Source: Archangium violaceum (lineage in GTDB: Bacteria > Myxococcota > Myxococcia > Myxococcales > Myxococcaceae). From it: a stretch of DNA of 64,000 nucleotides. Where the stretch lies: contig NZ_CP069338.1 in the NCBI RefSeq assembly GCF_016859125.1, positions 4,155,501-4,219,500 of the forward strand, written 5' to 3'. Shown in pieces: positions 23,420 to 29,741 of the stretch. The notes under the pieces are model-generated. The model was not told the origin of the DNA and did not search any database. It saw only the letters and a program-made list of their open reading frames with translations. The position numbers were made by a program, and so were the translations under genes. Every line of letters begins with the position of its first letter. Positions within the stretch are counted from its first letter, which is position 1.

Positions 23420-23599
23420 TCAACACCACGCCTGCTGGGGTGGCCCCTGCGCTGCAGCCAGCTGAGCAGGCCGCGTAGGCAGTGACAGGTGCTCCAGAAT
23501 GGCGCGCACGGCGTTGGGTGCCGTCAGGTATGCCAACACCCGGCGCTTGCCTCCACACCAGGCACAGGTGAAGACGTCCAACGCGAACGTTCTCCTCAG
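23420..23599 (-). pseudogene. IS91-type transposase C-terminal fragment (copy F)
   Basis: RRTFALDVFTCAWCGGKRR then VLAYLTAPNAVRAILEHL, ending QQAWC at 23420; identical over its length to copy B. It ends within the DUF47 coding region. Confidence 0.65.
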
Positions 23600-23706
23600 T
23601 CGCTCAGCAGCGTGTGCAGTATCCGAGCACCCTCCACGGTCACGGCGCACTGGGCGTCGAAGTCGTCAAAGAACTCGTCGGACCTGGGCATCAGCTTCTC
23701 GAGCAT
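23596..23706 (-). pseudogene. DUF47 (Pit accessory/PhoU-like) gene, first 36 codons
   Basis: An AGGAGGT site precedes the ATG at 23706; the frame reads MLEKLMPRSDEFFDDFDAQC and AVTVEGARILHTLLSD before a stop created at the IS91 junction. That opening matches DUF47 (TIGR00153-type) proteins, PhoU-like helical proteins normally paired with PiT phosphate transporters. It is the last gene of the operon, 42 nt after DUF4956, and has lost more than 80% of its length. Confidence 0.6.
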
Positions 23707-23748
23707 ACGGACCTCCTGAGGGGGTGGTTTCGGGGTGGGAGTGGATGC

Positions 23749-24417
23749 TCAACCCGGATCGATGGACGCGTTGCGGACTCCTGGCAGCGCGCCGCGAACG
23801 GCCTGGAGCAGCTCGAAGCCGTCCATCCGCTGGGGCATGGCGATCTCCACGACCGCCGTGCCCGCCAGCGTCGCGGGCGCCTGCTCCAGGGTGAGGACGC
23901 GCGCCCCCGGGTGCAGCGCCCGGAGGGGTGGCAGCGCCGCGCCCACGTCTTCCAGCTGTAGGGACAGCTTCACCCACTGCGTGTCGTCCCTGGCCGTCGT
24001 GTCGAGGATCAGCAGCACGGCGCAGAGGAAGAACGTCGCGACCACGGCGATCTGGAAGGCGCCCAGTCCGCAGGCCATGCCCACGCCGATCAGCACGAAC
24101 ATGACGGCCGCGTCGCGCGGATCCTTGATGCCCGAGCGGAAGCGGATGAAGCCGCCCAGGCCCACCAGGCCGAAGGCGCGCGACATGCTGTCGCCGATGA
24201 CGGTCGTCATCACCGCGCCCGCCACGGCGATCAGCAGTTGGGTATGGACGGTGGAGAGGACGGGGGCCGGAACCCTGGGCATCCACCTGCGCCAGGGCCG
24301 ATAGGCCAGGACCGAGCCGAGCAGCAGGGCGAGGCTGAAGCGCAGCAGCGCCTCGAGGGTGGGCAGGACATGGGGGCTGACGGAGGCCGCTTGCGTCAGG
24401 GCATCAGGCGGAGGCAT
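23749..24417 (-). CDS. DUF4956 membrane protein
   Basis: 222 residues. About four membrane helices occupy residues 20-135 (LRFSLALLLGSVLAY, TQLLIAVAGAVMTTVIGDSM, VMFVLIGVGMACGLGAFQI, VVATFFLCAVLLILD) around the DUF4956 signature FIRFRSGIKDPRDAAVMF. A cytosolic ACT-like tail follows. DUF4956 proteins are MgtC/SapB-related in layout and are often found beside VTC-domain and CotH genes. The ATG lies inside the upstream gene (14-nt overlap), implying coupling. Transport or scaffold role at the inner membrane is inferred. Confidence 0.8.
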   Translation of the reverse strand: MPPPDALTQAASVSPHVLPTLEALLRFSLALLLGSVLAYRPWRRWMPRVPAPVLSTVHTQLLIAVAGAVMTTVIGDSMSRAFGLVGLGGFIRFRSGIKDPRDAAVMFVLIGVGMACGLGAFQIAVVATFFLCAVLLILDTTARDDTQWVKLSLQLEDVGAALPPLRALHPGARVLTLEQAPATLAGTAVVEIAMPQRMDGFELLQAVRGALPGVRNASIDPG

Positions 24418-28040: not shown

Positions 28041-29659
28041 GGGCTCGTTCCGAGAGCGGCTTCGACCTCGGCCTGACGCTTCGCCGCGAAGTTCAGCAGG
28101 CCGTTGGTGCCACTGAGCGAGTCCTCGAACACCTGGGGACTGCTGATGAAGGTGTAGCCCTGCTGCTCCGCGTTCTCGCCCACCACGTACGGGGCGATGA
28201 GCTCGTGCGCCTCGCGCATGCGGGCCTGCAGCACGTCCGGGGCGAGTGGTCCCCGCGCGGCATCCAGCGCGTACCGCTTGTAGGTCTCCGCGTAGACGGG
28301 GTCATCCATGAGGAAGCGGATGAGCGGCCAGGTCGCGTCCACGGTGTCGTGCGTCAGGGACGTCGTCCGCCCCATGCCCTCGCCCATGGACCGGTCGTGG
28401 TCCCAGGTAATCCAGTGCAGCCGCCCGCCCTCGTCCGGGTTGGAATAGAGGTAGTAGTTGTGCGGCATGGCGCCGTAGGCGTCCCAGTTCTGCAGCAGCG
28501 TGTTGACGGCGAGCCACTGGAGGAAGCCCTCCACGTCCAGCTCCGCCTCCAGGCGCGCGCGCCAGGCCGCCGCGTCGGTGCGGTCGGAGTTGAGCGCGGC
28601 GATGAGCTCCTCCACGGGGGTCCACCCCTGCTCCTCGTTCGACTGGATGTCGAAGGACTCCTGGTCGAAGGTCTGCAACCGCGCCCCCACGCCATCCGCC
28701 TCGTAGAGCGCCCCCTTGTGGCCCCCGAAGCTCCGGTCGAGCAGCGGCTCATCCGGATCCTCGTTGAGCGTGTAGAGGCCGAAGTACTGGGGCCCGTTGC
28801 CGTGGTCCACGTACAGGGCGACGAAGGCGGTGTGGCCCGCGGGCACCCCGTGCTCACGGAAGATGTCCGTGGACAGCTTGTCGCGCATCAGCGAGGTGTC
28901 GGCCGCGCCGTTGCCGAGCGACAGCTTGTCGAAGCCGTAGAAGCGCTGGTCGTCGATCTCCGGGTGCGCGTCCTCGAACTCGTCGAAGTTGAGCCGGAAG
29001 GGCAGCTTGCCCACGCCGCTGCGCCACGTCTGCGCCAGCGTGGAGTTGCCCTTCATGCGCACGCCCACGTAGTTCCAGGTCTTCCCGTTGAAGTGCACCG
29101 TGGAGGGCACGTACACGGGCGTGTTGGGGATGAGGTCCCCGCCGCCGCCGGGAGCGCCGCCACCACCGGGAGCGCCGCCACCACCGGGAGCGCCGCCACC
29201 ACCGGGAGCGCCGCCACCACCAGTCCCACGCGGGGGCTGGCACTGGTGCTGGGTGCCATCCGGCGTCTTGGCGCAGGTGCTGGTGAAGGTGTTGCCGTTG
29301 AGGGTCGCGGTGCAGGCGTCCCCTTCCGCCTTGTCCTTGCAGGCCTCCGTGAGCTCGGGGGGAAGTCCGCCGCCGCCGGGAACGCCACCCCCGCCTCCAC
29401 CGCCAGTCATGCCTCCGCCGGCGCCGAACTCGCCCAGCATGGCGGTCATGTCGTCCTGCATCGTCTGCCAGTCCGCGGCCGAGATGGTGAGGTCGATCCG
29501 ATTCACCTTTCCCTGCGCGAAGACGACGTCATAGGCGGGAGGGGCCTCCTTGCCGTGCGACTCCTCGCTCCAGCCCTCGGGCCGTTCGATGCCGCCGCAG
29601 CCGGTCGCGAAGGTGAGGGCAAGTGTGGCAAGTGCTCCGATGCGTACACTTCTCTTCAT
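28037..29659 (-). CDS. CotH-kinase-family lipoprotein
   Basis: 540 residues from the ATG at 29659 (GAGAGGA site); upstream in-frame ATGs lack one. Signal ends LALTFATGC. CotH features: VNRIDLTISAADWQTMQDDM, VRMKGNSTLAQTWRSGVGKL, PFRLNFDEFED, FYGFDKLSLGNGAADTSLMR, the catalytic HWITWDHDRSMG. CotH proteins are atypical protein kinases acting outside the cytoplasm. Between the first strand and VHFNGKTW sits a 100-residue insert with a Cys-containing EACKDKAEGDACTATL motif and GGGGAP repeats. First gene of the operon, coupled by ATGA to the VTC gene. Confidence 0.8.
   Translation of the reverse strand: MKRSVRIGALATLALTFATGCGGIERPEGWSEESHGKEAPPAYDVVFAQGKVNRIDLTISAADWQTMQDDMTAMLGEFGAGGGMTGGGGGGGVPGGGGLPPELTEACKDKAEGDACTATLNGNTFTSTCAKTPDGTQHQCQPPRGTGGGGAPGGGGAPGGGGAPGGGGAPGGGGDLIPNTPVYVPSTVHFNGKTWNYVGVRMKGNSTLAQTWRSGVGKLPFRLNFDEFEDAHPEIDDQRFYGFDKLSLGNGAADTSLMRDKLSTDIFREHGVPAGHTAFVALYVDHGNGPQYFGLYTLNEDPDEPLLDRSFGGHKGALYEADGVGARLQTFDQESFDIQSNEEQGWTPVEELIAALNSDRTDAAAWRARLEAELDVEGFLQWLAVNTLLQNWDAYGAMPHNYYLYSNPDEGGRLHWITWDHDRSMGEGMGRTTSLTHDTVDATWPLIRFLMDDPVYAETYKRYALDAARGPLAPDVLQARMREAHELIAPYVVGENAEQQGYTFISSPQVFEDSLSGTNGLLNFAAKRQAEVEAALGTSP
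29143..29222. repeat. 18-bp tandem repeat in CotH gene
   Basis: GGGAGCGCCGCCACCACC is repeated about four times, encoding (GGGGAP)n on the minus strand. A length-variable linker. Confidence 0.8.
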
Positions 29660-29714
29660 GGGGGTCCTCTCGAAGGGGAGGTGGTGCTTCGAGTGGGCAC
29701 CCTGAAGCGGGCTC

Positions 29715-29741
29715 GTGACCTGTTCTTTACGTTTTTGTGAC
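29715..29741 (-). promoter_or_regulatory. PHO-box-like array upstream of the CotH-VTC operon
   Basis: On the minus strand three pentamers GTCAC, GTAAA, GTCAC begin exactly 11 bp apart (plus-strand 29737-29741, 29726-29730, 29715-29719), about 56 nt before the ATG of the first gene. PhoB-type sites are direct repeats of about 11-bp period containing GTCAT/GTCAC. Suggestive only. Confidence 0.35.

Follow-up and report, generated by a model that had tools for sequence, protein, structure and literature searches.

A conserved myxobacterial gene module around a VTC-domain protein is a candidate for phosphate handling

The window analysed here, 64,000 nucleotides of the Archangium violaceum genome (NZ_CP069338.1, positions 4,155,501 to 4,219,500; window coordinates are used unless stated), carries on its minus strand an operon encoding a CotH kinase, a VTC-domain protein, a Porin_O_P outer-membrane porin, a thymidylate kinase (TMK)-repeat protein termed TMK-solenoid, and a DUF4956 membrane protein. 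The module is real, conserved and little described, and it represents a new form of a known gene set and not a new category. Its gene order is kept among relatives, and its VTC protein has the fold and key active-site residues of the yeast polyphosphate polymerase subunit Vtc4. We tentatively read the five genes as a conserved phosphate-handling module around a bacterial VTC enzyme, a reading to which we give slightly less than even confidence. The source genome, a single 12.68-Mb contig, holds this operon (type A) and a second copy of the module (type B).

Translation and Pfam comparison bore out the gene calls of an earlier note on this DNA: five intact minus-strand genes overlapping by 4, 4, 1 and 14 nt, with the ATG of a DUF47 gene at 23706, 42 nt beyond the end of DUF4956. 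The CotH gene (28037..29659, 540 residues) overlaps the VTC gene (27276..28040, 254 residues) in an ATGA motif, VTC overlaps the porin gene (26086..27279, 397 residues, GTG start) in GTGA, and the porin gene overlaps TMK-solenoid (24404..26086, 560 residues) in TGATG; the 14-nt overlap joins TMK-solenoid to DUF4956 (23749..24417). One call changed: CotH had been started at 29741, and the ATG at 29659, which opens a lipoprotein-type signal, is the likelier start (both read by eye). All four overlap motifs recur in a relative (genome G001, locus L025), which a single blastn alignment joins to the window over 6259 columns with 89.9% identity (window 29842-23598, L025 5655-11881). The similarity ends at 29842 and 23598, covering the operon and a leader of about 180 bp 5' of CotH (29660..29842), and in all five genes changes are most frequent at the third codon position. 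G001 and G004 belong to the same genus as the source, with TMK proteins about 90% identical.

Among 195 genomes of the phylum, the TMK-repeat domain was found in 75 (15 of 90 genera; E ≤ 1e-10, with at most 11 first-look candidates scored per genome), VTC in 94 and DUF4956 in 102. The co-occurrence that the earlier note had proposed as a check was evident: DUF4956 was linked to 96 of 97 TMK-repeat places, and VTC, counted within 4 kb, to 89 of 97. The VTC count comprised 120 places; six further rows were discounted as second fragments of VTC genes already included. The eight TMK-repeat places without VTC within 4 kb lie in G018 and G143, where VTC sits elsewhere in the genome; G008, where a contig end cuts the place (L167); G111, where it begins at one; G044 (L041), where VTC was detected only with our own profile; G084; G142; and G036 (L042), where neither VTC nor DUF4956 is near and TMK stands alone. 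Of the 31 VTC places away from TMK, 13 lacked DUF4956 within 1.5 kb and 18 had it, at gaps of 120-277, and twelve DUF4956 matches lay near neither VTC nor a TMK-repeat gene.

Type A was mapped in 22 genomes. The order CotH-VTC-porin-TMK-DUF4956, whose loss in relatives the earlier note had named as grounds for abandoning its proposal, is complete in 20 of them; in G018 and G143 the genes are split over two places. Because of this conservation and the third-position bias against G001, we take the five-gene set not to be a product of chance. Chance neighbourhood without joint function would accommodate the split loci and the fact that CotH and DUF47 come and go individually, but it is already contradicted by the linkage counts, the duplicated module and the conserved overlaps, and we consider it extremely unlikely.

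The type B copy of the source genome lies at 7.417 Mb (L023). In the same 22 genomes, porin-VTC-TMK-DUF4956 is present in all 22 and a lipoprotein of family c10 in 21. A calcineurin-like phosphatase, its domain identified by Pfam in L023, falls within the fetched stretch in 18, not always adjacent and up to about 5 kb beyond c10; the stretches of G015, G032, G123 and G124 lack it. The L023 porin scored below Porin_O_P in Pfam and is a relative of the window porin by tblastn (31%, 3e-13). The c10 family often accompanies the porin (L023 7236-8033; also L152, L162, L150 and L046), and the two members scanned had no Pfam match. VTC, TMK-repeat, DUF4956 and porin, constant in both paralogous forms, therefore make up the core; that much of the six-gene unit first proposed held, while CotH and DUF47 proved variable. 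Lateral transfer of the whole type A block between lineages was considered and rejected: type A and type B distances correlate across the 22 genomes (r 0.865), so descent was mostly vertical, with some placements, such as that of G143, differing between the two trees.

More distant loci vary the theme. L166 and L039-L041 carry porin-VTC-TMK-DUF4956 with CotH close by; in one family (L039-L041) a very large TPR-type protein, exceeding 2400 residues in L040 and open at the locus end, stands beside the module. L047 has VTC-Na/Pi cotransporter-TMK, and L049, from a Planctomycetota metagenome-assembled genome (MAG), VTC-TMK. TMK is missing from L162 (porin-lipoprotein-CotH-VTC-DUF4956) and L163 (porin-CotH-VTC-DUF4956), where the CotH domain, matching only profile positions 1-209 of 322, belongs to long proteins of 926-944 residues (L162 10008-12839, L163 5692-8469) upstream of VTC-DUF4956, with about 0.5 kb of unassigned sequence separating CotH from VTC. 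In L046, from a Kofleriaceae MAG, TMK, porin and c10 are present with no VTC within that stretch, and a PPDK_N (phosphoenolpyruvate-type ATP-binding) protein (4282-6309) lies directly upstream of them. Of the pairings seen, VTC-DUF4956 is shared most widely, repeatedly accompanied by porin and CotH; the detected range of TMK-solenoid comprises four families in a single order plus a few MAGs.

The window VTC protein matched PF09359 at 65.5 bits against a cut-off of 23 (6.7e-18) and has the tunnel fold of Vtc4. The earlier note had staked its case on catalytic residues, and these are present on alignment: Vtc4 R264, R266, E426 and K458 correspond to R82, R84, E211 and K238. In yeast, mutations of R264, R266 and E426 are reported to impair the VTC complex (PMC9911596), and K458 is described as catalytic (PMC4641920). 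R82, E211 and K238 are invariant in 19 VTC sequences; Lys replaces R84 in type B, L047 and L049, and Vtc4 R253 and K455 are not kept. The position two after the metal Glu (E426+2) is Lys in all 19, and from the numbering in PMC4641920 we infer that it pairs with Glu-171 of the tripolyphosphatase AtTTM3. A profile of the 19 sequences (A3) matched only Vtc2, Vtc3 and Vtc4 chains in the PDB (E ≤ 1), and the model of the window protein resembles non-catalytic Vtc3 and Vtc2 about as closely as it does Vtc4, so the argument for a polymerase rests on residues and not on fold. Polymerase activity is our best guess for this putative enzyme. Pfam, searched at E ≤ 1, found only the VTC domain and no SPX domain in the 254 residues. 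No signal or transmembrane segment was seen by eye, and we therefore place the protein in the cytosol.

The same residues bear on a different proposal, a phosphate-homeostasis regulator in which the VTC protein would act as a sensor or as a polyphosphatase on short chains and the DUF4956 protein, MgtC-like and with a C-terminal domain, would tune phosphate uptake or ATP synthase as Salmonella MgtC does. CYTH relatives are stated to include tripolyphosphatases (PMC4641920), and an N-terminal Glu (E22), a phosphatase-like feature, is nearly invariant and retained in the window protein. MgtC is said in PMC12345266 to deregulate phosphate metabolism, and DUF4956 proteins match the MgtC model weakly: the window protein scored 39.9 bits against a cut-off of 30.6 with PF16316 (4.6e-10), and 28.5 bits (2.1e-6), below the cut-off of 31.4, with the MgtC family PF02308. 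However, the Lys at E426+2 and the K458 equivalent follow the polymerase, and profile A3 matched Vtc chains alone in the PDB at E ≤ 1, even though these include non-catalytic ones. On balance we find a regulator unlikely.

By profile and fold, we confidently assign the kinase half of TMK-solenoid (residues 1-212; 25451..26086) as a predicted ordinary thymidylate kinase and the other half (residues 232-547; 24446..25393) as a predicted alpha-solenoid of helix pairs with a period of about 27 residues. The protein matched PF02223 (2e-19) and exceeded the cut-off of the deoxythymidine monophosphate (dTMP) kinase family TIGR00041 (85.6 against 83.25 bits), with the fold to match in a structure model (predicted local distance difference test 90.9, predicted template-modelling score 0.88). 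When the whole model was compared with known structures (Foldseek, VIA-align), only thymidylate kinases appeared among the best 50 matches listed. The solenoid half is helical in the model, had no PDB match by sequence, and its self-similarity peaked at lag 27 with a value of 0.233, where 300 shuffles reached at most -0.258. A search with the protein gave 1174 matches at E ≤ 0.001 among 7997 scored; most of the named ones among the best 120 are called dTMP or thymidylate kinase. In a contig scan with the TMK alignment, ordinary thymidylate kinases dominated, with 7 of the 80 loci retained matching over nearly the whole length. The source genome has another, weak TMK match at 8.888 Mb (residues 2-146, 1.4e-8), so the copy in the operon probably does not serve as housekeeping dTMP kinase.

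PPK2 enzymes are reported to derive from the same P-loop kinases as thymidylate kinase (PMC8776046), and use of polyphosphate by TMK-solenoid is thinkable on this ground. Taken further, TMK-solenoid would be a divergent PPK2-like enzyme making nucleoside polyphosphates, or nucleoside triphosphates from polyphosphate, and the module a reversible phosphate battery. Such a battery would agree with the common ancestry, with the full conservation of the P-loop and DR residues, and of most lid residues, across 19 of 19 aligned relatives, and with the TMK match elsewhere in the genome. We nevertheless hold it to be very unlikely: TMK-solenoid scores as a dTMP kinase, PPK2 (PF03976) was not among the 18 Pfam families that it matched at E ≤ 1, and the PF03976 match of the genome sits elsewhere.

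CotH matched PF08757 (1.2e-58) and aligned with crystal chain 5jd9 (E 2.1e-13), keeping the conserved Asp motifs NxD and WDxD; a Gly-rich linker was also seen by eye. The porin matched PF07396 at 42 bits against 20.9 (9.4e-11), a partial match over profile positions 26-163 of 370, and had no PDB match by sequence. The DUF4956 protein has hydrophobic stretches, and its conservation is among the highest around R92-D102, which includes the basic run R92-R101: each of 47 aligned rows, in which L045/L145 and L048/L038 represent two genomes twice, has a basic residue at positions 94, 98 and 101. By sequence it matched nothing firmly in the PDB, with only weak CLC matches at 0.23. Basic residues of the first transmembrane helix (TM1) of yeast VTC are reported to line the channel and to be needed for polyphosphate stores (PMC9911596); the likeness to DUF4956 concerns the kind of residue only and is no claim of homology.

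For the phosphate-handling module, we propose that the cytosolic VTC protein would move the gamma-phosphate of ATP onto a polyphosphate chain in its tunnel. DUF4956, the putative membrane partner, might receive or move the chain by means of its invariant basic segment, much as yeast VTC does with its basic TM1 helices, and TMK-solenoid could act as scaffold and as a nucleotide-phosphate kinase serving the polymerase by nucleotide recycling or priming. The porin would let phosphate or short polyphosphate cross the outer membrane, the DUF47-PiT pair, where kept, would import inorganic phosphate, and the CotH lipoprotein kinase may use the product outside the cytosol or act on an envelope protein; the direction of flow is part of the proposal. 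A stricter counterpart of yeast VTC, in which cytosolic polyphosphate made from ATP would be threaded through a DUF4956 channel to the periplasm as phosphoryl donor for CotH, with TMK-solenoid coupling the polymerase to nucleotide supply, seems to us quite unlikely; if true, it would mean ATP-free phosphorylation of the cell envelope via CotH.

The phosphate connection rests on repeated non-homologous partners, namely Porin_O_P, DUF47, PiT, an Na/Pi cotransporter and a metallophosphatase, and is stronger than was apparent to the earlier note, since relatives carry the last four nearby, DUF47 intact. DUF47 occurs in 6 of the 21 other type A genomes, and PiT follows it in one of the five unsplit type A loci with intact DUF47, that of G001. 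L047 also carries PiT-DUF47 about 4 kb further on, on the other strand. Yeast endopolyphosphatases are described as including calcineurin-like metallophosphatases (PMC6973038), with which the type B enzyme may be compared as a parallel and no proof.

In the window itself, DUF47 (23596..23706, minus) is a fragment, not an intact PF01865 gene: 36 codons lead to a stop where the gene meets a repeated element. The fragment is too short to have given a Pfam match of its own; we assign it to DUF47 on the 100% identity of its 36 residues with the N-terminus of the intact L025 protein and on the match of the G003 orthologue to PF01865 (3.4e-23). The downstream edge of the operon is thus a rearrangement that broke DUF47 after codon 36. 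The element (23217..23597, minus) has 43 matches in the genome, itself included, and an identical 381-bp stretch in the same orientation lies 15.4 kb away at 7796-8176. By eye the element resembles the 3' end of a transposase gene, but no Pfam family was named for 23220-23558. Nearby, an IS110-family transposase (21890-22812, plus) in two overlapping frames, a DEDD part and a Transposase_20 part, is probably broken. Survival of the rest of DUF47 with PiT at a rearranged end was rejected: the search led only to an intact pair at 1.545 Mb that has a start of its own. With DUF47 broken and this pair 2.6 Mb off, the uptake limb that the earlier note had placed in the operon lies outside it as it stands. 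The envelope-spanning phosphate machine of the earlier note is as a whole partly supported, envelope-spanning flow being a hypothesis.

Elsewhere in the window lie a 1411-residue protein with 19 RCC1 stretches (16086-20321, minus), a PhyH-like dioxygenase reading frame (20197-21276, plus; 3.1e-5) and a phosphotransferase system group (34120-40917) with a LacI-type regulator, a 955-residue EIIA-HPr-enzyme I fusion and a 773-residue EIIBC.

PMC10657179 and PMC13318637 credit polyphosphate synthesis in bacteria to PPK1 and PPK2 and treat VTC as eukaryotic. VTC domains are already known by sequence in prokaryotes (Corynebacterium, Bacteroides and Methanosarcina served as survey controls), and the source genome has two PPK1 matches and one PPK2 match (8978937, 1048146 and 5949910) besides its two VTC genes. 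A literature search, whose scope left out preprints and most subscription journals, found no paper on the porin/VTC/TMK-solenoid/DUF4956 set. A myxobacterial VTC protein with membrane, porin and phosphate-transport partners makes use of a tunnel polymerase by bacteria directly testable, together with the question of whether coupled polyphosphate synthesis and membrane transfer predates eukaryotes. It also offers a possible answer to the phosphate source of secreted CotH kinases, and singles out the TMK-solenoid family, in which named members among the best 120 matches listed are mostly called dTMP kinase.

Among known systems, Gram-positive Pel loci share the families CotH, poly-P polymerase and DUF4956, which lie next to the Pel clusters of streptococci, clostridia and bifidobacteria (PMC7112168, PMC12345266); VTC and CotH are also described together at one locus of Clostridium perfringens (PMC2879425). 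In Streptococcus intermedius, Pel rose when the DUF4956-like MgtC-ACT gene was lost and fell when CotH was lost, with aggregation in one medium reduced in either mutant, and the passages concerned name no loss for the polymerase mutant (PMC12345266). By analogy, CotH, VTC and DUF4956 could modify or regulate an envelope polymer or lipoprotein through phosphate chemistry, which the type B lipoprotein (c10) and, by eye only, a glycosyltransferase-like reading frame near the set in L046 would suit. Unlike the Pel loci, however, the window's genome has no match to PelG, the one Pel gene searched for, no polysaccharide family occurred among the Pfam-scanned part of the neighbours, and the module has a porin, TMK-solenoid and, recurring nearby, phosphate transport genes; we judge a surface-polymer role unlikely. 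The authors of PMC12345266 suspected phosphate metabolism and report finding no CotH/polymerase/DUF4956 synteny outside Pel loci; the present loci, above all L162 and L163, are such synteny, and give a phosphate setting to genes linked until now with Pel.

The phosphate-handling module is most readily compared with the yeast VTC complex, a catalytic Vtc4 tunnel domain with a transmembrane channel, with which it shares the tunnel fold, the ATP- and metal-binding residues and a membrane partner with conserved basic residues, here encoded beside the enzyme. It differs in lacking SPX, in placing enzyme and membrane protein on separate genes, and in adding porin, TMK-solenoid and CotH; DUF4956 is likened to the Vtc transmembrane domains without a claim of homology. 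PPK2 and thymidylate kinase share the TMK-type P-loop domain, to which TMK-solenoid adds a solenoid of 27-residue repeats and linkage to VTC and DUF4956. Plant TTM1/TTM2 (7z67) likewise couple a P-loop kinase to a triphosphate tunnel metalloenzyme, but fused in one protein, with a kinase of uridine-kinase type and reported pyrophosphatase activity (PMC6973038). The DUF47-PiT uptake pair follows the operon in G001, whereas the window keeps only the first 36 codons of DUF47, the intact pair lying elsewhere in the genome.
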